Assembly: GCF_026162365.1 (NCBI RefSeq)
Contig: NZ_JAOANW010000020.1
Span: forward strand, 1 to 46,146
DNA length: 46,146 nucleotides
Reading direction: 5' to 3'
Origin: Nitratireductor luteus
GTDB lineage: Bacteria; Pseudomonadota; Alphaproteobacteria; Rhizobiales; Rhizobiaceae
The notes under the pieces were generated by a model. That model was not told the origin of the DNA. It was given only the letters and a program-made list of their open reading frames with translations, and ran no database searches. The translations under genes and the position numbers were made by a program. This document shows, piece by piece, positions 3,593 through 18,355 of the stretch. Every line of letters starts with the position of its first letter. Position 1 is the stretch's first letter.

Positions 3593-4012
3593 ATGGATGA
3601 TGAAGCGGAGATTCGTGCGCTCATCGGGGCGCATTTCGAGGCCATGAGATGGGGAAGCGAATCGGCGCCCGACTGGGACCGCTTTCGGGCGGACTTCCTG
3701 GACGACGCCATCCTGTTGGGCGCCGCGCGGCCCGTCACAGCGAGGTCGCTGGAGGCGTTCATTGAGCGTATGGAGACTGTAGCACGAAAGAACCTCCACT
3801 CGTTTGAGGAACATACCCGCGGCATGAAGATCCTTCGGTTCGGCAACGTGGCAGTGGTGCTTGCCATGTCAGAATTGCTAGAGAACGGCGAGGACGTGAA
3901 CCACGACATCAGCGGTTACCTGCTGGTCAAATCGGACGGACGCTGGTCGATCGCCGCACACGCATGGGATCAGGCTGCGGACGACAAGCCGGTTCCGGAC
4001 GAGCTTCGCTGA
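3593..4012 (+). CDS. NTF2-like (SnoaL/DUF4440-type) protein
   Basis: A 139-aa protein with the layout of a small NTF2-like fold: an N-terminal helical section (EIRALIGAHFEAM), central strands, and a typical terminal strand pair (ISGYLLVKSDGRWSIAAHAW). Such proteins may be small enzymes, ligand binders or orphan folds, and the sequence does not say which. An AGGGGGAAA Shine-Dalgarno lies just upstream of the ATG. It stands alone between an IS630 remnant and a convergent XRE-cupin gene. The fold assignment is reasonably secure; the function is unknown. Confidence 0.7.
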   Translation: MDDEAEIRALIGAHFEAMRWGSESAPDWDRFRADFLDDAILLGAARPVTARSLEAFIERMETVARKNLHSFEEHTRGMKILRFGNVAVVLAMSELLENGEDVNHDISGYLLVKSDGRWSIAAHAWDQAADDKPVPDELR

Positions 4013-4068
4013 CCAATGTGTAGCGGTGCAAGATACGGTTTTGGGATGCAAGCGTTAGAGTCGGACCA

Positions 4069-4653
4069 CTAGGGCATGGTCACCACCAGCGACGTGCACA
4101 CGACGGTACCCTCGCGGCGGTAGCTGTGGGGCACGCTTGAATCGAAATACATCGCGTCACCGGCATCGAGCACCCTTACCTCCCCGTCCACGTCGACGAC
4201 GAGGCGTCCGCTCAGCACGTAGATGAACTCCGCGCAGCCATGCCGGTGCGGCTCCGATGGCGGCGCGTCGGTCGGGAATTCGGCATAGAACGCCTCCATC
4301 TGGCGGTCGGTTACCGGATAGTCCAGGCTTTCAAACAGCCAAGCGGGCGGCTCCCCGCCCGGTGGCGCGGGAAGCCTGATCCGCTCGTCCTTCCGCACCA
4401 CCGCGACGAGCGGCTTGTCCTTGTCCGGCATGAAGAAATGGTCGAGTCCGACGCCGAAAACCATCGCGATCCTGAGCAGGGTCGGTAGAGTGGGGAAGAG
4501 CTGGCCCCGCTCGATCTTGGACAGCATGGCCGACGAAAGCCCGGTATGGGCGCCGAGCTGCACCAGGCCGAGCTTTTTCTTGAGGCGCAGCGTCTTGATG
4601 CGGGGACCGATCGCATAGCGCTGGAGTTCGTTGGTGAGCGTATCGGAAAGCAT
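4069..4653 (-). CDS. XRE-family regulator with C-terminal cupin sensor domain
   Basis: Predicted 194-aa transcription regulator. An XRE helix-turn-helix lies at about residues 15-70 (IKTLRLKKKLGLVQLGAHTG, then LSKIERGQLFPTLPTLLRIA). A C-terminal cupin_2 barrel follows at about 115-190, with PHRHGCAEFIYVLSGRL and a later PHSYR segment. This is the usual build of regulators that sense a small molecule in the cupin and often control a divergent gene. Here the divergent neighbour is the FAS1-DUF378-tspO cluster, and the intergenic region is AT-rich with TTTTC...GAAAA palindromes. The ligand cannot be inferred. Confidence 0.85.
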   Translation of the reverse strand: MLSDTLTNELQRYAIGPRIKTLRLKKKLGLVQLGAHTGLSSAMLSKIERGQLFPTLPTLLRIAMVFGVGLDHFFMPDKDKPLVAVVRKDERIRLPAPPGGEPPAWLFESLDYPVTDRQMEAFYAEFPTDAPPSEPHRHGCAEFIYVLSGRLVVDVDGEVRVLDAGDAMYFDSSVPHSYRREGTVVCTSLVVTMP

Positions 4654-4698
4654 GTCGGCAAACTTCCTTTTCGTCCTGTGAAAGCCACTCTAGCCATA

Positions 4699-4735
4699 TT
4701 TTCTCTTAATGAAAAACAAAATAACTTTCACGAAA
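4699..4735. promoter_or_regulatory. Candidate operator palindromes for the XRE-cupin regulator
   Basis: Two dyads lie in the unusually AT-rich divergent intergenic region. TTTTC-N7-GAAAA spans 4699-4715 and TTTC-AC-GAAA spans 4726-4735. Both share the TTTC/GAAA half-site. Their position between divergent genes fits operators for autoregulation and for control of the FAS1 cluster. This is inference from symmetry only. Confidence 0.4.
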
Positions 4736-4822
4736 ATATGACTGGTAGGAAAGCCTATTTTCACCACATGATAATCCGTACCTGTTGCATCGGGCTTACG
4801 GGTCAACAAGTGGAGCCATCCC

Positions 4823-5308
4823 ATGAAACTGAAGACAACCATTCTCGCAGCCGCGATCGGCCTTGCCGGCGGCCTCGGCGCTTTCGCCGCGGAGAAAGAC
4901 ATCATCGACACTGCCCTAGAAGCGGGTCAGTTCAAGACGCTCGCCGTCGCTCTCGAAGCAGCCGGCCTCGTGTCCACCCTGAAGGGCGCTGGGCCATTTA
5001 CGGTCTTTGCTCCCACGGACGAGGCGTTCGCCAAGCTGCCGGCCAGCACGGTGGAGGACCTGCTGAAGCCGGAGAACAAGGAGCAGCTCACCGCCATCCT
5101 GACCTACCATGTCGTCCCCGGCATGGTGAGGGCGGCGGACGTGGCGGGAATCGATGAGGCCAAAACCGTGAACGGCAAGATGATCGACGTCGAGGTCAAT
5201 GGCCAGTCGGTCAAGGTGAACGATGCCGAAGTCATCAACGCCGATATCGCGGCCTCGAACGGCGTCATCCATGTCATCGACAAGGTGATCCTGCTGCAGG
5301 AAGACTGA
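4823..5308 (+). CDS. Secreted fasciclin (FAS1) domain protein
   Basis: A 161-aa protein with a cleavable signal peptide (positively charged KLK start, hydrophobic run, AFA-AE cleavage region near residue 22), followed by one complete FAS1 domain. Family hallmarks are visible: H1 box [17 protein letters not shown], an internal YHVVPG, and H2 box [13 protein letters not shown]. Bacterial single-domain FAS1 proteins are periplasmic or surface adhesion-like proteins with poorly defined roles. It is the first gene of a same-strand cluster, with DUF378 28 bases later, then TspO. The AT-rich upstream region holds candidate operators of the divergent XRE-cupin gene. Confidence 0.92.
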
Positions 5309-5336
5309 CGCCCAGCGCGAACCTCGGAGAAGAATC

Positions 5337-5561
5337 ATGAAGTTTATCAATATTCTGACGCTCATCCTCGTTATTGTGGGTGGGTTAAATTGGGGGCTGG
5401 TCGGCCTGTTAAGCTTCGACCTTGTCGCCGCGATCTTCGGCGCGGGCTCGGCGCTCTCCAAGATCGTCTACATCCTGGTGGGGTTGTCCGCGGCCTGGCA
5501 GTTCATTCCGCTGTTCTCCGCACTGGGGTCCGGCGAACTCGCCACGCAGCGAAACCGGTAG
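5337..5561 (+). CDS. DUF378 small membrane protein
   Basis: A 74-aa integral membrane protein with two predicted transmembrane helices (about residues 4-27 and 38-60). The DUF378 signature is visible in INILTLILVIVGGLNWGLVG. An AGAAG ribosome-binding site precedes the ATG. DUF378 proteins have no established function. It follows the FAS1 gene by 28 bases and is probably co-transcribed. An imperfect hairpin just downstream may trim read-through into the TspO gene. Confidence 0.9.
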   Translation: MKFINILTLILVIVGGLNWGLVGLLSFDLVAAIFGAGSALSKIVYILVGLSAAWQFIPLFSALGSGELATQRNR

Positions 5562-5567
5562 CCTATC

Positions 5568-5602
5568 GGAGGGGGCCGCTTGATCTGCAGGCGGCGCCCT
5601 CC
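5568..5602 (+). terminator. Hairpin between DUF378 and tspO (possible attenuator)
   Basis: A 12-base left arm (5568-5579) pairs with a right arm (5591-5602) with one mismatch and an 11-base loop. There is no strong T-run after it. It could be a weak terminator or RNA-stabilising element inside the cluster, and it ends 13 bases before the TspO start. Confidence 0.4.
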
Positions 5603-5615
5603 ACTTTGGTGTTCC

Positions 5616-6110
5616 ATGGACGCATTTTCCCTCCTCATGCTGATCGCCTTCGCGGGTGTGAGCTTCGGCGCCGCGGCGACCGGCATCATCTTCCGCCCCG
5701 GTAAGTGGTACAGGCAGCTCGACAAGCCTCGCTGGCGGCCGCCGGATTGGCTGTTTGCGCCCGTGTGGACGACACTCTATGCGATGATCGCGCTGTCGGG
5801 CTGGCTCGTCTGGCGCGAGGCGGGGTTCGCGGCGGCCGTGCTGCCGCTCAGCGTCTATGCGATCCAGCTCATCCTCAACGCAGCGTGGACCCCGATCTTC
5901 TTCGGGTTGCGCCGACCTGACCTGGCGATGATCGAGATCGCGATGGTCTGGGCCTCGATCTTCGCTATGATCGTGCTGTTCCACCCCATCAGCCCGGTCG
6001 CGGCGTGGCTGCTCGTCCCGTACCTGGCGTGGGTGAGCTTCGCCTCCGCCCTCAACTTCTCCATCTGGCGGCGCAACCCCGCGCCACATGTGGCGAAAGG
6101 CACCCTATGA
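5616..6110 (+). CDS. tspO: TspO/MBR-family membrane protein
   Basis: A 164-aa five-helix membrane protein of the TspO/peripheral benzodiazepine receptor family. The diagnostic segment WRPPDWLFAPVWTTLYAM, followed by GWLVW, is intact, as is the later LNAAWTPIFFG motif. TspO proteins bind tetrapyrroles such as protoporphyrin IX and, in Rhodobacter, modulate oxygen-dependent gene expression. That role here is an inference. I prefer the ATG at 5616 (MDAFSLL) to one at 5580, which would add a non-conserved charged leader and lie in the upstream hairpin. Its TGA overlaps the next gene's ATG (ATGA), implying translational coupling. Confidence 0.9.
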   Translation: MDAFSLLMLIAFAGVSFGAAATGIIFRPGKWYRQLDKPRWRPPDWLFAPVWTTLYAMIALSGWLVWREAGFAAAVLPLSVYAIQLILNAAWTPIFFGLRRPDLAMIEIAMVWASIFAMIVLFHPISPVAAWLLVPYLAWVSFASALNFSIWRRNPAPHVAKGTL

Positions 6111-6616
6111 CGCCGCGCTGGATTGTGGTGGACGACCGGATGCAGCAGCGGTACCGCTATGCCCTGGTGGCGCCGATGGGCCGCGACTTCCATCCCGAAT
6201 TCCGACCCGACCTCTCCCCGGCGGAAATGCTGGCGCTCGGCGTGTTCGGCGGCAAGTACATGACCGACTGCCGCGGCGAATTCCCCGAAGGGTGGTTCGC
6301 CGAGGCCAAGCTGTCGCCGAAGTGGCGCGACCCCTCGCTCAACTGGTTCGGCGTGGACGCGAGCCAACCGCTCAGCGTCTGGCGTGCCAAGGGCTGGATC
6401 CATCCAGACGATCCGCGTGGCTGGTTCCAATGGTACTGCCGCTATTATCACGGGCGCAGGATGCCCGGCGAGGATGAGCGGCAGATCGGCCGCTGGAAGG
6501 CCATTCGCCGCCATATCGCGCAGCTGCACCGGGCCTGCGATCCTGGTGACCGATGGTGTCGCCCGCGCCAGCGCCAGGCGCTGCTGCACTGGGCATATGA
6601 CAGCCGTGTGCTGTGA
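6107..6616 (+). CDS. Conserved hypothetical protein coupled to TspO
   Basis: A 169-aa soluble protein that I do not recognise as a named family, though its look is that of a widely conserved bacterial hypothetical. It is rich in Trp, Arg and Tyr, with motifs such as LGVFGGKYMTDCRGEFPEGWF, WIHPDDPRGWFQWYCRYYHGRR, and a basic C terminus with a possible RHIAQLHRAC element. No signal peptide or membrane segment is seen. It begins at an ATGA overlap with TspO, so it is translated from the same message. A role linked to the TspO protein is plausible but unproven. Confidence 0.75.
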   Translation: MTPRWIVVDDRMQQRYRYALVAPMGRDFHPEFRPDLSPAEMLALGVFGGKYMTDCRGEFPEGWFAEAKLSPKWRDPSLNWFGVDASQPLSVWRAKGWIHPDDPRGWFQWYCRYYHGRRMPGEDERQIGRWKAIRRHIAQLHRACDPGDRWCRPRQRQALLHWAYDSRVL

Positions 6617-6986
6617 TTGCAGCAGGCGCTGGAGCACACGTGCATCGTCAGCCCACCCCGCTTCCTGCCACGACCGTTTCCGCTTTCGATCGAGAAAGCC
6701 GTGTCGGGTCACTGGGCCCGTCGCGATTGCAAATCGCGCACAGCGCCGCCCAATGGGGATGATGCCGCACGAGGCGGTTGCGCCCGAGCGTTCTCTACCG
6801 ATACTGCTGCCCCCCTACGGCCTCTCTTCTGGGCTGGTCTGGCGTCGGCCCGGCCTTGGCCTGCAACGGCTCCGCCGTCCTCCGCTCACGCTGCGGCCCT
6901 TCGGATGCAGCCGTCCGCCCCGTCGCCTCTCGACCGCCATCGAGGCCGCATCGGGCGGCTTCGGGCAACCTTCAGGAGATACGACA
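6617..6986. other. Intergenic leader before the DUF736 gene
   Basis: No gene is seen here. A perfect 7-bp hairpin (CGCGATT-GCA-AATCGCG, 6722-6738) lies about 105 bases after the preceding gene. The remainder is C-rich sequence leading into the DUF736 gene. It resembles the leaders that commonly precede DUF736 genes on alphaproteobacterial mobile elements; this is from memory and unverified. Confidence 0.35.
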
Positions 6987-7286
6987 ATGGCTCAGATCGG
7001 CATCTTCACCCGCGACGAGAACGGCGCCTACGCCGGGACGATCAAGACCCTCACCCTCAACGTCAAGGCCACCATCAAGCCCTGCGACCGCGACAACGAC
7101 AAGGCGCCCGACCACCGCGTCACCGCCAATGGCGTCGAGTTCGGGGCCGGCTGGAGCAAGACCGCCCGCGAGACAGGCGCCGAGTATCTCTCCCTCAAGC
7201 TCGACGATCCGTCCTTCACAGCCCCCGTCTACGCCTTCCTCGTCCAGGGCGAAAAGGGCGAGCACAAGCTCATCTGGTCGCGATGA
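6987..7286 (+). CDS. DUF736 family protein
   Basis: A 99-aa DUF736 protein. The family pattern is clear: IGIFTRDENGAYAGTIKTL at the start, GAGWSKTARETGAEYLSLKL in the middle, [13 protein letters not shown], and a terminal IWSR. An AGGAGATACGACA ribosome-binding region precedes the ATG. DUF736 genes are typically found on plasmids and integrative elements of alphaproteobacteria, and their function is unknown. The gene is followed by a palindrome-rich junction and then a truncated second DUF736 gene, which suggests a former mobile region. Confidence 0.9.
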   Translation: MAQIGIFTRDENGAYAGTIKTLTLNVKATIKPCDRDNDKAPDHRVTANGVEFGAGWSKTARETGAEYLSLKLDDPSFTAPVYAFLVQGEKGEHKLIWSR

Positions 7287-7342
7287 ACCCACCAACGGCG
7301 CTCCGCTCACAACGGGGCGCCCGGCTTCCACCCTCGGCATTG

Positions 7343-7449
7343 TGCGGAGCAGACCCCGCCGAAACCGGGGGAAAACCAGCCCTTACAAGCCAACACTCCG
7401 CATAATCCCGCTCTCAGCATAATGCGGCGTTATGCAGTGCTCCGCATAA
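7343..7449. repeat. Palindrome and repeat cluster between two DUF736 copies
   Basis: This short stretch holds TGCGGAG at 7343-7349, the direct repeats CTCCGCATAA at 7396-7405 and 7440-7449, and a palindrome GCATAA-N7-TTATGC at 7417-7435. The second DUF736 reading frame resumes immediately after the last repeat. The arrangement resembles a recombinase-recognised end or crossover site. No recombinase gene is present. Confidence 0.55.
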
Positions 7450-7624
7450 GGCCGAGATCGGCGCCGCCTGGTCCAAGCGCTCGAACGAGGGCCGCGATTA
7501 TCTGGGCCTCAAGCTCGACGATCCGAGCTTCACCGCCCCGATCTACGCCAACCTCTTCGACGACGAAGACGGCGACGGCTACTCCCTCATCTGGTCCCGC
7601 CCCAGCCGCCGCAATGGCGAGTAA
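7448..7624 (+). pseudogene. DUF736 gene, N-terminally truncated
   Basis: The frame from 7448 reads as the C-terminal half of a second DUF736 protein: [20 protein letters not shown], then [15 protein letters not shown], ending [13 protein letters not shown] before the stop at 7622-7624. It aligns with residue 50 onward of the intact DUF736 protein encoded at 6987-7286. The first roughly 48 codons are replaced by the CTCCGCATAA repeat junction, and no start codon remains. It differs at many positions from the intact copy, so it is a distinct paralogue rather than a recent duplicate. Confidence 0.8.
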
Positions 7625-7632
7625 CCCGCGAC

Positions 7633-7659
7633 GCCCCGCCCGGAAAGTCCGGGCGGGGC
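7633..7659 (+). terminator. Strong GC hairpin after the truncated DUF736 gene
   Basis: A perfect 12-bp stem (7633-7644 with 7648-7659) with a 3-base loop begins 9 bases after the DUF736 stop. It is followed by a short GATTTCGT stretch rather than a long T-run. It fits a rho-independent-type terminator retained from the original DUF736 gene. Confidence 0.7.
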
Positions 7660-7867
7660 CGATTTCGTCGGGCGACCGAATCAGTTGCGCCCGTTTCCCG
7701 ATTCCGCAAGCGCAAAAGCCATAAATCGCTGCATCGCTCATTAAGAACGGCTATTTTAGATGGGGTATTCGTAATTTCGCAGGTTAGGCGATCCAGTTAC
7801 GGGCCGCTATCTTGCGCACCGCCTGAATTGTAAGGCGTGCTCCTGCGGCAAATCTGCGACGGACTCT

Positions 7868-8110
7868 TCAGTCTTGGATCGGCGTCTGCGCCGAGTACCG
7901 GGACAAACCTTCATTAATCTGTGCCTCGGCCCGCCGCCTCAACAGATGGTCGAGCATTTCGAGGTCGTTGAGCACATCCACAGGCTCGCGGTCGCGCGCA
8001 CCCTGCAGAGCGTGCTTCAGCCACTCGCTCATGCCCGGATGCGAAAGCACCCAGTCGATGCGCTGCTCCGCCTCTTTCAAATATCCTTCAAGCGTCCGAT
8101 CGGTCGCCAT
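7868..8110 (-). CDS. Small hypothetical protein, last gene of the dab operon
   Basis: An 80-aa charged, probably all-helical protein with no signal peptide or membrane helix. Visible stretches are LEGYLKEAEQRIDWVLSHPG and LNDLEMLDHLLRRRAEAQIN. I do not recognise a family. A strong GAGGAGG ribosome-binding site lies 7 bases before the ATG. It starts 26 bases after the DUF6671 gene on the same strand and so is likely the fifth gene of the dabB-dabA operon. It could be a small accessory or partner protein, but nothing in the sequence proves a function. Confidence 0.65.
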   Translation of the reverse strand: MATDRTLEGYLKEAEQRIDWVLSHPGMSEWLKHALQGARDREPVDVLNDLEMLDHLLRRRAEAQINEGLSRYSAQTPIQD

Positions 8111-8136
8111 GCTGGCCTCCTCAACAAGAACTCACA

Positions 8137-9003
8137 TCAGGGATTGCAGCCGTTGCACTGACCCGGATCGGCCGTCGCCGCTTCGACGGGCCTTTCGATG
8201 CGATGGCCGCACCCCGCACATACAGATACTTCCGTCCGCAGCGCGATCGTGGGCTCGCCGCACCAGGCGCATGGCAACCCGGCGAGCCTTTCCGTAACAG
8301 CGAATCCCGGCTGCGCGCATTGCGGACAGGGGCTGCGATAGCGGCGCACGAGATCGATCGTCGCGCGCCTGATGGCACGCATGCGCGTGGGGTTGCGGTG
8401 CGCGCGCATGTCGGTTTCGACGTGCGCCGCGCCACACAGCGCGATCGCCTCGCCAACCGCCGCCGAGAGCTGCCCGAGCGTCCGAGCCTCCTTGTGGAGG
8501 TACCGGCCCGGAACCGGATTGCCGTCGGCGACACCGACGACGATCAGGCCTTGCCCGGGAAAGCCGATCCGCTGGGCGAAAGCCGCCGCCGCATCAACGG
8601 TTTCGACCGTCTGGTGAGCAAAGGTCGTCGACAGGTCAGCGTGGTGACCGATCAGCTCAAGACCGGAATCTCGGTCGAGAAGAACGACGATCTCGCGGCC
8701 GAGCGGCACGAAAGGAATGAAAGGGTGAGGTCCAAAGCTGCCCTCGCTGGCGGTGGCGACATGCGCCTCCGGATCGTGCTCGAAGGCGGCCTCGATCTTG
8801 GCGTGCGCCGCATCGAGCTGGGTGCCGGTCCGTTCGATCTCGCGGCTGAACGTGCCGAACCGGTCGGTGTCGAACCCGTCCGGCAAGACGACCCGGAGCC
8901 CGAGCCCGCCTTCGAGCAGCGGGCGAATGACCTGCTCCTTGCCATGCATGGTCGCCAGGACCGCGCGCTTGTTTGCGACGGAGAACGCTGATGGGACCGG
9001 CAT
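8137..9003 (-). CDS. DUF6671-like protein with C-terminal zinc ribbons
   Basis: A 288-aa soluble protein. The N-terminal part (about 15-215) resembles the DUF6671 family: AVLATMHGKEQVI, then FGTFSREIERTGTQLDAAHAKI, and EGSFGPHPFIPF. The C-terminal 70 residues carry four CxxC pairs (CPQC, CAWC, CAGC, CNGC), which look like two zinc-binding ribbons. The start ATG overlaps the stop of the CysD-like gene (ATGA), so translation is coupled. The function of the family is not known. Its position suggests a role with the CysD-like PP-loop protein or the Dab transporter. The family name is from memory. Confidence 0.75.
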   Translation of the reverse strand: MPVPSAFSVANKRAVLATMHGKEQVIRPLLEGGLGLRVVLPDGFDTDRFGTFSREIERTGTQLDAAHAKIEAAFEHDPEAHVATASEGSFGPHPFIPFVPLGREIVVLLDRDSGLELIGHHADLSTTFAHQTVETVDAAAAFAQRIGFPGQGLIVVGVADGNPVPGRYLHKEARTLGQLSAAVGEAIALCGAAHVETDMRAHRNPTRMRAIRRATIDLVRRYRSPCPQCAQPGFAVTERLAGLPCAWCGEPTIALRTEVSVCAGCGHRIERPVEAATADPGQCNGCNP

Positions 9004-9923
9004 CAGAAGTAGCCCTCCCGTTTCTGGCGTTCGAGCGATCCCGCGCCGTCCCGGTCGGACAGCCGGCCCTGGCGTTCCGAGGTCCCGGCGCTGAGGGTCT
9101 CGTGGACGACAGCAGCGAGGTTGGCGGCGTCGGACGCGATCGCGGCGGTGACAGGCCAGCAGCCGAGCGTGCGGAAGCGGACCGTCCGTGTCATCATACG
9201 CTCGCCGGGCCGCAGCGGCATGCGCGATAGCTCGTCCACCACGATCAGAGCGCCGTCGCGTTCGATCACCGGCCGCGGCTCCGCGAAATAGAGCGGCGCG
9301 AGCTCGATCCCGCGGGAGAGCGCGTAGGCCCAGATGTCCATCTCGGTCCAGTTCGATAGTGGGAAGACGCGCAGCGACTGTCCATTGCTCAGACGCGTGT
9401 TGAATATCCGCCAGAGTTCGGGACGTTGCTGGCGCGGGTCCCAGCCCTGCTGGTCGGTGCGCACCGAGAAGATGCGCTCCTTGGCCCGCGACTTCTCCTC
9501 GTCGCGGCGGGCGCCGCCGAAGACGATGTCATGCCTCCCGCGATCGAGCGACTGCTTCAGGGCGTCGATGCGCATGACGGTGGTGTATGCATCGCCGTGG
9601 TCGAAGGGGTTCAGGCCAGCCGCTCGGCCCTCCTCGTTGGCGTAGACCACGAGCTCGAAGCCGTGCCGCTCAGCGAAGGCGTCGCGGAAGGCAAGGAGCG
9701 AACGGAACTCCCATGTCGAGTCGACATGGAGGAGCGGAAACGGTGGCGGCGCGGGGTAGAAGGCGCGGAGCGCCAAGTGGGCGAGAACCGTCGAATCCTT
9801 GCCGGCCAAGAACAGCATGACCGGATTGCGTCCCTCGGCGACCCCCTCGCGCAGGATATGGATGGCCTCGGCCTCGAGCATGTCGAGATGCGAGAGCCGC
9901 GCCAATGCCTGCGGCGCCGTCAC
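9003..9923 (-). CDS. CysD-like PP-loop protein (ATP sulfurylase small-subunit homologue)
   Basis: A 306-aa homologue of CysD, the adenylyl-transferring subunit of sulfate adenylyltransferase. It is similar along its whole length (E. coli CysD is 302 aa). Conserved blocks include [11 protein letters not shown], the PP-loop GKDS at 41-44, [53 protein letters not shown] and TSERQGR. The residues before the PP-loop differ (FLAGKDS against YSIGKDS), and the TGWKF segment reads STWEF. No CysN GTPase subunit is in the window, although CysD normally needs it. The start is GTG at 9923, forming a GTGA overlap with the dabA stop. It may be a specialised paralogue serving this operon rather than sulfate assimilation. 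Confidence 0.85.
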
Positions 9924-12346
9924 GCGACCGCCTCCAGCTTGCGAACCCCGGACGAGGCGCCGATCGCGTCCCACTCCAGATCGCCCGCATAGCGGTAGGC
10001 GAGCCGGCCTTCCTCATCCATGGCGAAAAGATGAAGCCAGCGATTGTCGAAGAGGGCGCGCACGCCTTCATGCCGCTCGAGAATGTCGTTCATCGCCTCG
10101 CACGGCGCCTCTATGCAGACCGACAGGCGCAGCGGATCGTGCACATAGCGCTCGCCGTCGTGCGCTGATTGCCAGGGCAGGCCGGCGCGCAGCGGCCCTC
10201 CATTGCCCTCGACGACGCCGATGCCGCCGACGACATTGTGCAAGAGCTTGTTGCCCGATCCGAACGTCTTCGGCGCAACGGTCGAGCCGTAATATTGCAG
10301 GCTGATCCAACTCGCGACGACGACCGGCGCGGTCATGATCAACTCCAACACGCCGAAGCCGTTCGCGCTGTCCCGCTTCCAATCATAGTCGTGCAGAAAC
10401 GCGCGGCCTTCCAGGCTGCGGCCGGCCGTACGGATGCGCGGTGCCGCGATAAAGGCCTTGCAGCCGGCCAGCCCCCATTCGGGGCGCACCTCGGCCCAGT
10501 TGCGGGCCCGGCCAGCGATGTCGCCCCCATCCGCCATGCGCGGCAGGCGCAGCGCCCGCTCCCCGCGAGCCACCTTGCCGGCTGCTGTCAGCCACTGCCG
10601 GACCTTCCTGAGATCGGCCGCGTGGTCTTCTGAGGGCATGTCCAGATCATAGAGGCTCACGGTGTCCGTGGTCGTGTCGTGCAGCGCGCCGACAAAGAGC
10701 GTGTCCCCCGGAACAACGATGCCGCGCGCGCCGAGGCCTTTGCGCACATCCGCATCGTTCAGAAGCCGTGCCAGTAGTCGCGCGTTGACCTCACCTGAAT
10801 AGCCGCCGCAGGCCCCGCAATGCAGGCCGCTCGCATGCGGATTGTTGACCACGTTCGCGCCATGGCCGGCCAGCAGCACGATGCGTGCGAAACCGCCGGT
10901 GAGCGACATGGCGCGTAAGACAGTTTCCGCCGCACCGGTTCGCGTTTTGAGATCGAGTTCGGGATCGAAGCGTGGTGCGGGATCGTTCGGCACGGGCATC
11001 GAGTTCAGACCGAGCGCGTCGCGCACCAGCTTGCCGATATAGATCGGCCCCATCGCCTCGACGAAGGCGAAGGACGACACTGCGGCGAGCTTGAAGCGAC
11101 GCCAGGCCCGCTTGGCGCGCGCCTTGTAGCGCGCGGCAAGATCGTCGACCTTGCCCTGCTCGTCGCCGGCAGACGAGGTGACGGTCGGATTGAACAGAAC
11201 GGGAAGTCGCAACTCCTCGATGTCCGACGCGAAGCGCCTGTGCTTTGCGAAGACGCCGAAGAAGCCCGCGAACCCCAGCGTGCGGATCGACGGATTGACG
11301 GCTTCGAGCGCGCGACGAAATACTTCCGAACGGACATCGATGCAGAAGGCCGCCTGAAGCGCCGGGCGGTCGGTAGAGGCGCCCGGCGTGCCTTCTTCCG
11401 CCAACGTCTCGGCAAGCTGGCGCTGGGCGGCGCGTTCGGCCGCTTCCTGCAGGATCTCGTCGACGATGTCGTCCGCAGCCGGCGCGACAGGCACTTCGTG
11501 AGCCTGCCGTACATTGGCCCAATCGTCGCCGATTGCCGCTTCGTGCCGCGCGAACAGCGCCTCTTCCCAAAGCAGCCTGATCGCCAGCAAATCGGTGATC
11601 GTGCTGTCGTCGCGTCCGGTCAGTTCGGCGCGCCACAGCTCGTAGCGGGCGAATTGCGACCAGCCGCCGAGCGAGAGCAGGAGTTGATGGAAATAACTGT
11701 CGAGCGCGGCACTGCCCAGGCCAAGCCGTTCGACAGTGCGTGCGATCGCCTCGGTCGGGTTCTCGGGCGCGTCGGCGACGAAGGCGGCGAAGCCTTCGTG
11801 GCCCATGATCTCCGGCGTCAGGTCGTGGGTCGCATAGGCTCGCCAGGCGGCCCAGGCCGACTTTCCGCGCGGCGCGGCCCACAGCGCCTGCCCGCGATCG
11901 AAATAGCCGCCCGCCCAGGCGCCGATACGGTCGCCAATCGCCCCGGGCCAATCCGTGCCCCCGATCCTGGCGACAAGATCGGCGACCGTCGGCAGCGGTT
12001 TCGGCGCCGGCCGATCCTTCGACGCCGCCGCTTTCAGCTTCGCGACATCGGCCGGTCTGCCGGCATGGGGGGAGGCCTCGAGCGCCGCGGCGAGGTCGTC
12101 ATAGATGATCTCGCCGTCAGCGATGCGCTCACGATACCAACGCCTCGGCATCGTGACGGGACCAGCCCCGACGCGCCCCAGTCGAGCGCCGGTTTCGGCC
12201 AGTGTCTCCGTCGTCTGGCCGAGATAGGGATTGACCGCGACTGAGGACGCGAGCGGCCAGAGCGGCGGGATCTGCCGCGCGCCCGCGTCTGCCGCGGCCT
12301 GGAGCGTAGGGAGGTCGATGGATTTGCTCTTGGTGTCGATTGTCAT
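9920..12346 (-). CDS. dabA: DabA, inorganic carbon transporter cytoplasmic subunit (DUF2309)
   Basis: An 808-aa DUF2309 protein, the carbonic-anhydrase-like subunit of the DAB energy-coupled CO2/bicarbonate uptake system. The zinc ligands known from Halothiobacillus DabA are all in place: C335 and D337 in [11 protein letters not shown]495 in LLAGHGAN, and C510 in [16 protein letters not shown]. No membrane helices are expected; it sits on the membrane partner DabB, encoded 21 bases upstream. In the known model, CO2 entering is hydrated vectorially, driven by ion flow through DabB. The stop overlaps the GTG of the CysD-like gene. Length and motifs are typical, and I see no sign of damage. Confidence 0.93.
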
Positions 12347-12367
12347 GGGTACATCTTTTCTCTGGCG

Positions 12368-13927
12368 TCAGGACGGCCGGCGGACGGACCAGTTGCCGAC
12401 CAGTCGGTCGAAAACGGCGTTGGCGTAGAGGCCGTTGGACAGATGGACGCGCAGGCCCGCCGCCGCCGGGTGACCCGCCCAGAGCGGGAACATGGCCTGC
12501 GCCACGGCGACGACGCCGAAGCTGAACACGGCGAGCGTCAGGAGCGCCCATTCGAGCGGTCCGGGCGAGGGCGTCGCCGGCAGCGTTCCGGCGGTCAGCC
12601 ATTCGGCGCCGGTCTGCAAGGCGAAGTAACTGACCGAGGCGGCGACCGCGTAGAGCGCGGTGTACCGGGTCAACATGCGCGGCGCAGCATCCGCGAGGCC
12701 CTGCGCAAGCAGGTAGGCGACGCCGAAAATCAGGATGGCGCCGAGCGCGATGGCTTGGGGCGATTTGGCGTCGAACCCGAAGGCGAAACCGATGAGCGCA
12801 TAGATCGTCAGCGCCAAAGCGAAGGCGCGCATCACCGCCCGGCCGCTCGGAATCGCGATCGGACCCGGCCGGCGGATGGCCGCGACCAGATCGACCGCCG
12901 TGCCGGAAGAGAGGAAGGCGTGCGCCTTGTAGAGCGAATGCGCGACGATATGCAGAAGCGCCAGCGGGAACAGGGCCAGCCCACACTGCATAATCATGAA
13001 GCCCATTTGGGCGATGGTCGACCAGGCGAGCGAGTTCTTCACCGCGGACTGGGAGAGCATCGCGAGGCCGCCCAGGAGCGCCGTGAAGCCGCCGATCATG
13101 ACCAGTACCGCAAGCACGCCTGGTGCGAGCAGCATCACGTCGGCGAAGCGGATCAGCAGGAAGCCACCGCCATTGATGACGCCAGCATGCAGGAGCGCCG
13201 AGACCGGCGTCGGGGTCTCCATCACCTCGGTCAGCCAGCCATGGATCGGAAACTGGGCCGATTTGAGCATCGCGGCGAGCGCGAGCAGTCCGGCCGCCCA
13301 GATCACGCCGCCGGGCATGACCCCGTCATGCGCCGCGGCCAGAATGGTCGCGATGTCGCTCGTGCCGTAGCCGACGAAAAGCAGCGCAGCCGCGCCAATG
13401 AGCGCCGCGTCGCCGATTCGCGCGATTATGAACTGCTTGCGGGCCGCCCGGATGGCCTGGACGCGGTGGCCATAGAACAGCAGAAGCCGATGCAGACACA
13501 GGCCGGTCGCGATCCAGGCGGCAACGAAATGGGTCAGGTTGCCCGCCTGCACGAGCAGCAGCACCGCCGCCAGCGTCGTCGCCATCCAGCCGAGAAACGC
13601 GCCCTGACGCGCCTCGCCGTCGAGATAGGACGCCGAATACCGCAGGACGATCCAGCCGACGAACGCGACGAGGACCAGCATGGTCGCGCTGACCACGTCG
13701 ATCCGGGTCGAGAGACCGATGCCTGCCAACCCGAGAAGCGGCCCGGTGTGAGCCCCCTCCCACATCACAAGCGCCGCCGATCCGATCGCGGCGGTCAGCG
13801 CGGCGAGCGCCGCGCCTTCGGTGAGCTTCGGGACGAGCGGCGGACGCCGGCCGGCGTTCAGGAATGCGGCGACCGCGGCCAAAAGCAAGACCGCGGGCGC
13901 GATCAAGGGGATGAAAACATACGGCAT
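12368..13927 (-). CDS. dabB: DabB, NuoL/MrpA-like membrane subunit of the DAB carbon uptake system
   Basis: A 519-aa polytopic membrane protein of the proton-conducting NADH dehydrogenase (NuoL/MrpA) family with about 13 hydrophobic segments. Family motifs are seen: LKSAQFPIHGWLTEVMETPT, PVSALLHAGVINGGGFLLIR, and HIVAHSLYKAHAFLSSGTAVD. Conserved lysines and histidines of the ion path (K in LKSAQFP, H in LLHAG, K in SLYKAHAF) are retained. It is shorter than true NuoL and is followed by DUF2309 dabA, which separates it from complex I subunits. It is first in the five-gene operon, and the divergent LysR gene suggests controlled expression. Confidence 0.93.
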   Translation of the reverse strand: MPYVFIPLIAPAVLLLAAVAAFLNAGRRPPLVPKLTEGAALAALTAAIGSAALVMWEGAHTGPLLGLAGIGLSTRIDVVSATMLVLVAFVGWIVLRYSASYLDGEARQGAFLGWMATTLAAVLLLVQAGNLTHFVAAWIATGLCLHRLLLFYGHRVQAIRAARKQFIIARIGDAALIGAAALLFVGYGTSDIATILAAAHDGVMPGGVIWAAGLLALAAMLKSAQFPIHGWLTEVMETPTPVSALLHAGVINGGGFLLIRFADVMLLAPGVLAVLVMIGGFTALLGGLAMLSQSAVKNSLAWSTIAQMGFMIMQCGLALFPLALLHIVAHSLYKAHAFLSSGTAVDLVAAIRRPGPIAIPSGRAVMRAFALALTIYALIGFAFGFDAKSPQAIALGAILIFGVAYLLAQGLADAAPRMLTRYTALYAVAASVSYFALQTGAEWLTAGTLPATPSPGPLEWALLTLAVFSFGVVAVAQAMFPLWAGHPAAAGLRVHLSNGLYANAVFDRLVGNWSVRRPS

Positions 13928-14025
13928 GAGCGGGTCGTTTCCGATGCGGTTGAGAACGACACCACTTGTAAGCAGCGCCCAAACTCAAGAAAAATACATT
14001 GTTCTGGGCTTATCATTCTGTTTAA
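13928..14025. promoter_or_regulatory. Divergent promoter region between dabB and the LysR gene
   Basis: This 98-base AT-richer region separates divergent starts, the usual arrangement for LysR regulators and their targets. It includes the AT-rich stretch 13985-14025. Several T-N11-A dyads can be drawn, so I do not single one out. No FixK-type TTGA-N6-TCAA box is present, so this operon is probably outside the oxygen regulon. Confidence 0.5.
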
Positions 14026-14931
14026 GTGAACGACATGGCCGAGTTGAACTTCCACCATCTGCGCTATTTCCACACGGTGGCGCATGAGGGGAACCTGACC
14101 CGCGCGGCGCAGCGGTTGAACGTGTCGCAGTCCGCGGTCTCGTCCCAAATCCGGCAGCTTGAGGAACGACTGGGTCAATCGTTGTTTGAGCGACGCGGTC
14201 GAACCCTGGTCCTCACTGAAGCGGGCCGCATAGCGCTCGATCACGCGGACGCCATCTTCGCCGCCGGCGACGAGCTCCTGAACACGCTAGGCGAACGACC
14301 ATCGGGCCGACGGCAGGTCCTTCGGGTCGGGTCACTCGCGACACTCTCCAGAAACTTCCAGATCGGCTTCCTGCGTCCGCTGCTCGGTCGCGACGATGTC
14401 GAGATCGTCATCCGCTCGGGTGCGCTCGGCGATCTGCTCCAGAATCTCGAGACGCAGAGGCTCGACGTGGTCCTCGCCAACATATCGCCGCCGCGCGACG
14501 CTGCGACCCCGTGGATATCCCACGCAATCGCCGAGCAGCCGGTGAGCCTCATCGGGATCCCCGAACGGATCGGCGAGGGTGCGACGTTCAGGGACCTCCT
14601 TGCCCGTGAACCGCTCATCCTGCCGACTGTCGAAAGCAGCATCCGGTCCGGTATCGACGCGTTGTTCGACCGCCTCAACATCCGCCCTCGCATCGCCGCG
14701 GAGATAGACGACATGGCAATGATCCGCCTTCTCGCCCGCGAGGGCGTTGGACTCGCCGTCGTGCCCCCGATCGTGGTGAAGGACGAACTCGCGAGCGGAC
14801 GGCTCGTCGAGGTCGACCGGTTTCCTCAGCTCAGCGAAACCTTCTACGCGGTCACGCTGTCGCGGCGATTCCCGAATCCTCTATTGCGGGAGCTGATCGA
14901 TGGCGGGAGTGACCGGCCGGAGCGGCACTGA
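14026..14931 (+). CDS. LysR-family regulator, NhaR-like
   Basis: Predicted 301-aa LysR-type regulator. The N-terminal winged helix is clear (LNFHHLRYFHTVAHEGNLTR, then AAQRLNVSQSAVSSQIRQLE), followed by a substrate-binding domain to the end. The HHLRYF opening and the segment DDMAMIRLLAREGVGLAVVP resemble NhaR-type regulators, which respond to sodium or pH, more than CbbR. The start may be GTG 14026 or ATG 14035; they differ by three residues. It is divergent from dabB, so control of inorganic carbon uptake is the natural inference. A link to ion or pH status would suit an ion-coupled DabB. Confidence 0.85.
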   Translation: MNDMAELNFHHLRYFHTVAHEGNLTRAAQRLNVSQSAVSSQIRQLEERLGQSLFERRGRTLVLTEAGRIALDHADAIFAAGDELLNTLGERPSGRRQVLRVGSLATLSRNFQIGFLRPLLGRDDVEIVIRSGALGDLLQNLETQRLDVVLANISPPRDAATPWISHAIAEQPVSLIGIPERIGEGATFRDLLAREPLILPTVESSIRSGIDALFDRLNIRPRIAAEIDDMAMIRLLAREGVGLAVVPPIVVKDELASGRLVEVDRFPQLSETFYAVTLSRRFPNPLLRELIDGGSDRPERH

Positions 14932-15015
14932 GCGACTGAAATAGTCGTAGTTTACAAAACCGTCCGACGATTGGTTATGAGAAGTGCCGGTTCTTGATTC
15001 GAAAGGGGAATCGGC

Positions 15016-15544
15016 ATGTCTCAAAGCCACTATATCGGGCTGGATGTCTCGGCCCGCACCGTCAATCTTTGCGTCGTCGATCACGATGGCCACGTGGTGC
15101 ACGAACGAAAGCTCTCTTCCGATCCGGAGGAGATCGCGCAGCATATCTTATCACTTCGGTTCCCGATTGTTCGTGTCGGTCTCGAGGCCGGAATGTTGTC
15201 GCAGCATATCTATGGGCGGTTGGCGGAAGCCAATATTCCTGTTGTCTGTGTCGAGACCCGGCATATGAAGGCGGCGCTCGCTGCGCAGCTCAACAAGATC
15301 GACCGGCACGATGCGCGCGGAATTGCCCAGATGATGGGCGTCGGTCTGTTCAAGCCAGTTCACGTCAAGACGCCGAACAGTCAGCGCCTGCGCACGATCC
15401 TCACCGCACGCCAACTTCTGCGGAACAAGCTCCAGGACGTCGAGAACGAAATCCGCGGCCTCATCCGCAACTTCGGCTATCACCTCGGCAAGGTGACGGC
15501 GCGCGACTTCGAGCCTCGGGTGCGCAATCTGACTGCCGACACAG
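15016..15544 (+). pseudogene. IS110-family transposase, 3'-truncated
   Basis: The first about 176 codons of an IS110-family DEDD transposase: YIGLDVSARTVNLCVVDHDG with the first catalytic D, VGLEAGMLSQHIYGRL with E, and NKIDRHDARGIAQMM with the later acidic pair. A ribosome-binding AAAGGGGAA lies upstream of the ATG at 15016. The frame is cut at about 15544, where the terminal repeats of an IS21-family element start, so the C-terminal Tnp_IS116/110 domain is lost. The few codons that continue to a stop at 15567 are IS21 sequence. Confidence 0.85.
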
Positions 15545-15594
15545 TGTTGATTTTCGCTGAGAGCTGACCCGGGATTTTCGCCGAGAAGTGACCC
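15545..15594. repeat. IS21-family end with tandem terminal repeats
   Basis: The boundary begins with TGTTG at 15545. Two near-identical 21-base repeats follow at 15550-15570 and 15574-15594, each starting ATTTTCGC and ending TGACCC. Multiple short terminal repeats are typical of IS21-family ends. It lies downstream of istB, as expected for the element's right end, and interrupts the IS110 transposase gene. Confidence 0.8.
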
Positions 15595-15616
15595 GCTTTG
15601 ATGTATGGTTTGGGTC

Positions 15617-16411
15617 TCAGGTTTTGGTCAAGGGGGCGGCTTTCTCCTTCCTTTTGGTTGTGGCCTGGGCGGAACTGTTTTTGAAGCGGAAGCTGTCGTT
15701 TCCAGTCTCCAGGATGTGGCAGTGATGGGTCAGCCGATCGAGCAGCGCGGTTGTCATCTTGGCGTCGCCAAAGACGGTAGCCCACTCGCTGAAGCTGAGA
15801 TTGGTGGTGATGACGACGCTGGTGCGCTCATAGAGCGTGCTTAGCAGATGGAACAGCAGCGCCCCGCCTGATGCGCTGAAGGGCAGGTATCCAAGCTCGT
15901 CGAGGATGACGAGATCGGAATGGGCAAGCCGATTGGCGATCTGGCCGGCTTTGCCCTGGGCCTTCTCCTGCTCGAGCACGTTGACGAGCTCGACGGTGGA
16001 GAAGAAGCGGACTCGTTTGCGATGATGCTCGACCGCCTGCACGCCGAGAGCTGTAGCGATGTGGGTCTTTCCGGTGCCTGGACCTCCGACAAGCACGACG
16101 TTGTTGGCATCCTCCATGAACTCGCAGCGATGGAGCTGGCGCACGAGGGCTTCGTTGACCTCGCTGCTGGCGAAGTCGAAGCCGGCCAGGTCACGGTAGA
16201 CGGGGAAGCGGGCTGCCTTGAGCCGATAAGCGGTGGATCTGACCTCCCGTTCTGCCGTCTCGGCCTTCAGCAGTTGCGACAGGATCGGGATGGCGGCCTC
16301 AAAGGCAGGGGCAGCCTGTTCGGTGAGTTCGGCGACGGCCTGCGCCATGCCATGCATCTTCAGGCTTCTGAGCATGATGACGATGGCGCCGCTGGCGGGG
16401 TCATGACGCAT
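15617..16411 (-). CDS. istB: IstB, IS21-family helper ATPase
   Basis: A 264-aa AAA+ ATPase that assists the IstA transposase of IS21-type elements. Walker [10 protein letters not shown] and Walker [13 protein letters not shown] are intact, followed by sensor segment [12 protein letters not shown] start at the ATG at 16411 because a GGGAGGT ribosome-binding site lies just upstream; longer in-frame starts lack one. The C-terminal tail is Lys/Thr-rich. Its partner istA should lie upstream on the same strand, but that position is taken by a large palindrome and another IS21 fragment on the opposite strand. The element is therefore incomplete. Confidence 0.9.
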
Positions 16412-16474
16412 GGCGCACCTCCCTTGCGGCGCGGCAATCAAGGTGAGACGGAGCGTCAATCAAGATGAGACTCG

Positions 16475-17315
<841 letters not shown>

Positions 17316-17341
17316 TAGGAACCAAAGCGATGGAGGCATCC

Positions 17342-18355
17342 ATGTCAGAGATTACCATATTGGCGATTGATCTTGCCAAAGGCAGTTTTCAGGTCTGCGG
17401 TGTCAGGGCTGACGGCGCTGTTGTTTTCAACAAGTCAGTGTCGCGGCGACGGCTTTACCAGCTGCTCTCGGAACAGAACCGCTGCATCGTGGTGATGGAA
17501 GCGTGTGCGACGTCCCATCACTGGGGGCGCGTTGCCCAGTCACATGGACATGAGGTGCGTTTGATCCCGGCAGCCTATGTGAAGCCGTTCGTAAAGCGAC
17601 AGAAGAATGACCGGGCAGACGCCGAGGCGATCGCCGAAGCCGCATCCCGTCCCAGCATGCGTTTTGTTGCGGTGAAGAGCGCTGAGAAACAGGCGCGCGC
17701 AGTGGCCTTCAGGACGCATCAGTGCTTTGTTCGGCAGCGAACGCAGTTGATCAATGCGCTCAGGGGTCACTTGGCTGAATTTGGCGTGATAGCTCCCAAA
17801 GGTCCGGCAAGCCTGAAGCTTTTGGAACAGGCTCTGGCCGACCTCAAAAACGATCTGCCTGGCCCTGTGCGCGAGATGGGCGCTCTCTACCTGAGACAGA
17901 TCCGTGAGCTGACCGAAGTCGTTGAACAACTGGCCGATGATCTCGAAAGCGCATCCAAGACAGATGAGGAACTGCGGCGCCTGTGCACCGTGCCCGGGAT
18001 CGGTCCGGTGACCGCCGGCGCGATTGCTGCCTTCGCTCCGGAGCTTGAGACATTCGAGAGCGGGCGAAACTTTGCCGCCTGGCTGGGCCTGGTCCCTCGA
18101 CAGAGATCGACTGGAGGCAAAGCCCGACTTGGGGCCGTAAGCAAGATGGGTCAGTGCGACATTCGCAAACTGTTGATCGTTGGAGCCATGAGCGTGATCC
18201 GATGGGTCGTGCGCAAAGGCGGCAGCACAAATCGCTGGCTGGCAAATCTCGTTGCGCGCAAGCCGAGGATGGTGGCGGCAGTCGCATTGGCCAACAAAAT
18301 GGCGCGCATGATTTGGGCCATGACCACAAAAGGAGAGAATTACAGAATGGCGTGA
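17342..18355 (+). CDS. IS110-family (IS1111 group) transposase
   Basis: A 337-aa apparently intact transposase. The N-terminal DEDD RuvC-like domain shows ILAIDLAKGSFQVCG (D), VVMEACATSHHWGR (E), and KNDRADAEAIAEAA (DD). The C-terminal Tnp_IS116/110/902 domain shows LCTVPGIGPVTAGAIAA, FAAWLGLVPRQRSTGGK (with the conserved Ser) and LGAVSKMGQCDIRKLL. I start at the ATG at 17342, six bases after a GGAGG site. The enzyme class recombines DNA guided by an RNA made from the element's non-coding end. Confidence 0.92.
   Translation: MSEITILAIDLAKGSFQVCGVRADGAVVFNKSVSRRRLYQLLSEQNRCIVVMEACATSHHWGRVAQSHGHEVRLIPAAYVKPFVKRQKNDRADAEAIAEAASRPSMRFVAVKSAEKQARAVAFRTHQCFVRQRTQLINALRGHLAEFGVIAPKGPASLKLLEQALADLKNDLPGPVREMGALYLRQIRELTEVVEQLADDLESASKTDEELRRLCTVPGIGPVTAGAIAAFAPELETFESGRNFAAWLGLVPRQRSTGGKARLGAVSKMGQCDIRKLLIVGAMSVIRWVVRKGGSTNRWLANLVARKPRMVAAVALANKMARMIWAMTTKGENYRMA

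Follow-up and report, generated by a model that had tools for sequence, protein, structure and literature searches.

The Nitratireductor luteus window analysed here (46,146 nucleotides; positions 1 to 46,146 of contig NZ_JAOANW010000020.1, assembly GCF_026162365.1) holds, at 7868–13927, five genes that join the DAB inorganic-carbon (Ci) pump to a CysD-like protein without CysN, a DUF6671 protein and a small helical protein, p80. We observe that the core of this order is conserved in other bacteria, that its CysD forms a separate clade marked by a residue switch and that particular transporters and enzymes are enriched around DUF6671; a role at low CO2, and all biochemical activities other than that of DAB, we infer. 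Our leaning is that the five genes together make up a horizontally moving module for survival at low CO2, in which DabAB would lift cytosolic bicarbonate and the other genes would guard steps that fail under CO2 shortage.

A recurrent dabA–cysD–DUF6671 order

The genes run head to tail on the minus strand: dabB (12368–13927; the NuoL/Mrp-like membrane subunit of the DAB pump, Pfam PF00361 135.8 bits, PF00662 36.7 bits), dabA (9920–12346; the beta-carbonic-anhydrase-like subunit, PF10070 851 bits), a cysD-like, CysN-less paralogue (9003–9923; TIGR02039 420.1 bits, cut-off 396.6), the DUF6671 gene (8137–9003; PF20376 158.9 bits, gathering cut-off 23.8) and the 80-amino-acid gene p80 (7868–8110; a three-helix protein in its structure model). 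The GTG start of cysD at 9923 overlaps the dabA stop (GTGA), and p80 starts after a 26-nucleotide gap that carries a GAGGAGG-like ribosome site. Coordinates and family matches bear out this gene set and the GTGA overlap, both of which had been proposed from the sequence of the window; the ATGA overlap proposed for the cysD/DUF6671 junction is in fact TGATG, overlapping by 1 nucleotide.

One genome per species (84,980 species) was scanned with a four-sequence DUF6671 alignment and the best 80 loci were taken, more being present; genes were called with phmmer, one query per family, and simple open-frame picking. The order dabA–cysD–DUF6671 is found in 25/80 of these loci (24 distinct, L116 and L117 having the same DNA), in records whose titles name members of Rhizobiales, Sphingomonadales and Rhodanobacteraceae, and is therefore not unique to this genome. 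Within it, tsaC stands between dabA and cysD in L120 and L137, and the cysD of L103 lies in two frames after 0.9 kb without an assigned gene; L107, with a cysD remnant only, is not among the 25. Elsewhere, DUF6671 directly follows dabA (L124, L131–L134, L138, L140), follows cysD–cysN with no dab gene within the stretch examined (L109, L110, L119) or comes after ilvD and a short-type cysD and has dab converging on it (L163). p80 accompanies 27/80 DUF6671 loci and 16/25 with the order. Twelve plasmid records carry DUF6671 (two of them near-alike Arthrobacter U41 loci), and the order is present on 2/12. An even sample of 289 alphaproteobacterial genomes contains 12 with DUF6671 and 37 with DabA; besides the window genome, one of those 12 (G004) has dabA–cysD–DUF6671–p80, with dabA divided between two contigs; G137 and G152 of the same sample have dabA–DUF6671.

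Upstream of dabB lies a divergent LysR-family regulator (14026–14931, plus strand; PF00126, PF03466), for which NhaR is the top-scoring model (NF008284, 116 bits, under the cut-off of 219). A LysR match above 100 bits occurs in 19/25 loci with the order, and no inverted or direct repeat was reported in region 13900–14100 of the window. Just past the LysR gene are a partial insertion sequence (IS) 110 transposase gene (15016–15567) and an IS21-type istB gene (15617–16459), consistent with a mobile setting; at 5580–6110 is a gene for a TspO-like tryptophan-rich sensory protein (160.9 bits, under the cut-off of 180). Downstream of p80 in L104, L106, L108, L111, L115 and L116, a second LysR gene precedes trb-like conjugation genes, as judged by eye. 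L116 (Sphingomonas, a metagenome assembly) and L117 (Bradyrhizobium) have identical 16.8-kb DNA around the module, which reflects either very recent transfer or contamination.

The CysN-less CysD, DUF6671 and p80

The DAB-linked CysD is distinct from the sulfate-activation copy, as the original prediction had it. In our tree, 26 DAB-linked rows form one clade (support 100/100) apart from 28 housekeeping rows, three cysDN copies beside DUF6671 and L085 (short pieces L103, L163 and L223 and repeats L022, L117, L220, L221 and L222 were left out of this first tree). Another CysD and a CysN are present in 21 of the 22 genomes searched among the 25 with the order (L114 and L117 lay outside this search); the L120 genome, a metagenome assembly, has no other CysD and no CysN. 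The N. luteus genome (4.9 Mb, 99.9% complete), with a single match each to DabA and DUF6671, keeps a second, canonical cysD beside its sole CysN above cut-off (671 bits) on contig C12. The window CysD, adjoined by DUF6671 in place of CysN, is thus an extra copy, and a displaced housekeeping gene is ruled out.

The consistent change in this clade is at position 74 (308-residue numbering), which is Glu in 24/24 DAB-linked rows versus Lys in 28/28 housekeeping rows (L188 and L126 left out of this count); across the whole clade Glu74 holds in 28/28 rows, some of them repeats. Lys74 is kept by 32/32 examined copies adjoining CysN (26 housekeeping copies, L110, L119, L189, the short-type L223, L254 and L255), and the remaining 2 of the 28 housekeeping copies, also Lys74, sit at contig ends. 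Every examined CysN-less CysD tied to DAB or DUF6671 is acidic here, including that of L163 (Glu, versus Lys in L223, the CysN-linked copy of the same genome). A CysN-less CysD associated with another DAB type, marked by a PII-like gene (L085, 6566–7588), has Asp at the switched position; DUF6671 was not found within the stretch of L085 examined. That the acidic residue arose only once is rejected (approximately unbiased test versus one clade, p 4.75e-54), and a quick CysD tree needs at least two changes. L085, next to the DAB clade on a long branch of an unrooted tree, may share the gain of that clade; at least one CysN-less CysD unrelated to the clade made the same switch.

Thr71Ser, Lys120Arg, Tyr258Trp and Leu260Val are among the other switches, each side agreeing in 90% of its rows or more, and the PP-loop is mostly FS[AG]GKDST in DAB-linked and YS[IV]GKDS[SA] in CysN-linked copies. 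The altered PP-loop lead of the window copy (FLAGKDS), earlier taken as a clue to function, is rejected as such: its L-A-G-K-D-S (Ser41Leu) is private to this genome, 57/57 other aligned rows keeping Ser. Two more changes, Thr121Ile and Ala127Ser, are likewise private.

For the window CysD, a role in adenylyl transfer or nucleotide binding that serves inorganic carbon is plausible, and the change from Lys74 to an acid may mean, among other things, that the enzyme has come apart from CysN or has taken up another substrate. Our guess is an ATP-dependent adenylyltransferase, APS (adenosine 5'-phosphosulfate)-forming or close to it, that would work without CysN and without Lys74; because of the company it keeps (below), it would most likely back up another CO2-sensitive step. 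A simpler proposal is a spare ATP sulfurylase that yields APS without GTP coupling, the loss of Lys74 recording a lost CysN partnership only, with carbon pump and sulfur step carried together as both are growth-limiting in the same habitats. We regard this as possible but rather unlikely. The strict partition of residue 74 by the presence of CysN speaks for it, as does G004, whose DAB-linked CysD is its only CysD above cut-off and which lacks both Sat and any CysN scoring that high, although G004 is a metagenome-assembled genome. The genomes with the order, however, already hold another CysD and CysN in nearly every case searched (21/22), and L110, L119 and L189 carry cysD–cysN in the same cluster type, which argues that loss of CysN is not what the cluster selects.

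That CysD has instead changed its substrate, adenylating bicarbonate or a protein and feeding DUF6671 or DabA, seems to us unlikely: the reversed charge at a Lys that is constant elsewhere, the four further switches, the tight coupling to dabA and the PP-loop kept in relatives would fit, but the NCBIfam score still exceeds the CysD cut-off and DUF6671 frequently occurs without CysD.

DUF6671 is predicted to adopt an ITPase/YjjX-like fold (predicted local distance difference test (pLDDT) 93.2), within which residues 128–200 perhaps resemble an ATP-grasp subdomain, and its C terminus bears cysteine pairs. No ITPase-type chain is among its 16 PDB sequence matches (E up to 10), and no ITPase-type family is among the best 25 of 71 families listed for 68 DUF6671 members. 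Within these clusters the protein probably acts as a helper that binds or hydrolyses nucleotides. p80 is modelled as three helices (pLDDT 88.9), with W20, L22, P25, S28, W30, L31, N48 and L53 invariant in 19 aligned sequences; at E 0.001 it matches no family in Pfam, NCBIfam or PADLOC, and no PDB entry that would point to its fold. A defence role was rejected, since DUF6671, p80 and CysD have no PADLOC match.

Transporters and CO2-linked enzymes beside DUF6671

Genes found near DUF6671 encode DAB, SbtA and carbonic anhydrase, together with copies of TsaC, BioD, LarB, PurK/PurE, PyrC, IlvD and FolC (representatives of these families, FolC excepted, were checked against NCBIfam or Pfam). TsaC, BioD, LarB, PurK/PurE and pyruvate carboxylase take CO2 or bicarbonate as substrate, and PyrC, IlvD and FolC, the last a relative of MurE, depend on a lysine that CO2 carbamylates. 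A carbamylated active-site lysine is described, in the available portions of three sources, for two IlvD/EDD-family enzymes, dihydroorotase and MurE (PMC5770437, PMC8659124, PMC3829189).

We counted neighbours within 8 kb of DUF6671 (excluding the fragment L031 and L253, at a contig end), and over the whole stretch for two controls, namely 33 DAB-only loci, which span 9 to 18 kb apiece, and 40 stretches (17 kb each, 680 kb) hand-placed at round coordinates, not program-drawn, in genomes of this analysis. The CO2 idea was written down before a gammaproteobacterial sample was drawn; several neighbour queries came from DUF6671 loci seen before that draw, and the carbamylated-lysine families were singled out after neighbours had been seen. 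DUF6671 occurs in 14/369 of these gammaproteobacterial genomes, giving 12 counted loci (G305, known before, and L253 being out; L252 has only a DUF6671 remnant below cut-off), with a Ci transporter in 9/12, a CO2, bicarbonate or carbamylation enzyme in 7/12 and either in 11/12. The corresponding figures are 11/12 and 6/12 for transporter and enzyme in plasmid loci, and 40/51 and 17/51 in the non-cyanobacterial loci of the best-80 scan. Such an enzyme was found in 0/33 DAB loci without adjacent DUF6671 (one of which has CysD; G100, G128 and G280 among these genomes carry DUF6671 or a remnant elsewhere), and DabA, SbtA, CysD, CysN or any counted enzyme in 0/40 control stretches.

Some runs are long. 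L250 reads dabA–DUF6671–pyrC–ilvD–class III aminotransferase (bioA-like)–bioD–tsaC, and L248 (4890–15310) reads, in one direction, RuBisCO large chain–cbbQ–775-amino-acid gene–tsaC–DUF6671–biotin carboxylase–PYC domain gene, with carbonic anhydrase at 227–892 and no Pfam match for the 775-amino-acid gene. L189, a Pseudomonas hygromyciniae plasmid typed as conjugative, has a cluster at 3821–17874 that contains cysD, cysN-like frames, an NhaR-like LysR gene, raiA, TerC/Alx and DUF6671, and further pyrC, ilvD, apparently broken TsaC-like pieces and SbtA. TerC-type membrane genes lie near DUF6671 in L186, L193, L187, L189, L191, L196, L110, L135 and L023, some of these loci also having UspA-like genes. 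An isocitrate dehydrogenase gene stands upstream of DUF6671 in L166 (6228–7691, Bacteroidetes; family match), and L143 (5405–6895, Rhodanobacteraceae) has a look-alike identified by eye.

The original prediction of an accessory module of DAB therefore stands as to conservation (25/80 loci) and proves too narrow in scope: DUF6671 also lies beside other Ci transporters and CO2- or bicarbonate-dependent enzymes, and L109, L110 and L119 pair it with cysD–cysN in a dab-free stretch. DUF6671 clusters would often couple DAB or SbtA, as Ci transporter, with copies of biosynthetic enzymes for which CO2 or bicarbonate is indispensable.

Several observations weigh against a low-CO2 module. Only 5/11 DUF6671 loci of the alphaproteobacterial sample have a Ci transporter and 1/11 such an enzyme, and 29/29 cyanobacterial DUF6671 loci (among L142–L178) have neither. 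CO2 does not account for CysD, TerC, UspA or RaiA, and we know of no need for CO2 in sulfate activation. The window CysD itself, having lost its PP-loop serine, may be failing. Finally, the PyrC and IlvD copies examined retain the carbamylated lysine (13/13 and 12/12), by which we reject CO2-independent isozymes; these copies would add capacity or receive a helper, instead of escaping from CO2. The CysN-less CysD is the exception, having exchanged a constant lysine for an acid.

Such a helper could be DUF6671, whose cysteines would bind zinc next to an ITPase-like core and an ATP-grasp-like insert, loading CO2 with ATP on to the active-site lysines of PyrC, IlvD and FolC, or channelling bicarbonate to TsaC and BioD, under CO2 shortage; canonical CysD would then be one more, so far unnoticed, enzyme with a carbamylated lysine, and Glu74 would be a built-in carboxylate that frees the enzyme from CO2. 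We offer this as a speculative and doubtful extension. If true, it would describe a dedicated system maintaining lysine carbamylation at low CO2.

We think it improbable that the genes merely travel together as unrelated cargo of conjugative elements and plasmids. Several loci are indeed on plasmids or beside genes that look conjugative by eye, two loci filed under different genera share identical DNA, and IS21 and IS110 genes flank the window module; translation starts nevertheless overlap, the order is maintained across families, and the extra enzymes form a narrow functional set that is absent from the 33 DAB-only loci and 40 control stretches.

A response to zinc or manganese stress, in which TerC would export metal and the spare metalloenzymes serve as replacements, is equally hard to credit. 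Carbonic anhydrase is a zinc enzyme, which counts for it, but to our knowledge TsaC, FolC, CysD and BioD are not. DabA (in the available part of PMC13144422) and dihydroorotase are zinc enzymes as well. TerC lies within 8 kb of DUF6671 in 6/12 plasmid loci, but in only 2/51 genome loci and 0/12 gammaproteobacterial loci.

The low-CO2 module, which we continue to favour, suggests that bacteria swap a ready-made kit consisting of a carbon pump and the enzymes that a lack of CO2 disables first. Cluster content would in that case be a list, made by selection, of the metabolic steps most sensitive to CO2, including the seldom-named sulfate activation and, through IlvD, branched-chain amino acids, and the way in which cells maintain lysine carbamylation at low CO2 would become directly testable. 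It also provides leads to function for DUF6671, which Pfam lists without a function, for the family-less p80 and for a CysD subfamily labelled sulfate adenylyltransferase in public records, for example on plasmids with the order.

Comparison with known systems

The module is a variant of the known DAB operon, and within the literature searched there appears to be no description of the broader type of DUF6671 cluster. Among the matches listed from open-licence literature and few subscription papers, none joins these module genes; within the open-licence literature, we found none combining carbamylated lysine with low CO2, IlvD and dihydroorotase, none bringing dihydroorotase and dihydroxy-acid dehydratase together with TerC, bicarbonate, plasmids and CysD, and none on DUF6671, an absence that is weak evidence.

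DabAB produces bicarbonate from CO2. For the two RuBisCO-family genes of N. luteus, which encode partial proteins, the top-scoring model is that of a decarboxylase, with scores under its cut-off; RuBisCO autotrophy is rejected on this basis, and DAB is probably not serving a Calvin cycle. Like other DAB/MpsAB pumps, the module has DabA (PF10070) adjoining a NuoL-like DabB, with a divergent LysR gene, an arrangement already described for such operons in the part of PMC5700660 available. DabA also has the pattern of a putative zinc site, CxDxR from C335 (CIDVR) and H495-(15)-C510, matching the Cys, His and Cys ligands and Asp–Arg dyad given for DabA2 in the available text of PMC13144422. The downstream cysD, DUF6671 and p80 set it apart: they are absent from the operon as recounted in that part of PMC5700660, and CysD goes unmentioned in the main text of PMC13144422 as available.

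SbtA, known from SbtA/SbtB loci, replaces DAB near DUF6671 in ten loci (L020, L135, L141, L168, L173, L186, L189, L193, L195 and L249). These differ in transporter family, and only L189 has CysD, together with CysN. Compared with CysDN (PDB code 1zun, Sulfate adenylyltransferase subunit 2), the window CysD belongs to the same PP-loop family (363 bits over 301 residues) and scores above the curated TIGR02039 cut-off, yet it lacks an adjoining CysN, falls in a separate clade and carries Glu in place of Lys74 as well as Ser41Leu. DUF6671, in turn, would share its predicted fold with ITPase, YjjX and HcgB proteins and depart from them in its possible ATP-grasp-like insert, its C-terminal cysteine pairs and its want of a sequence-level PDB match to that fold.

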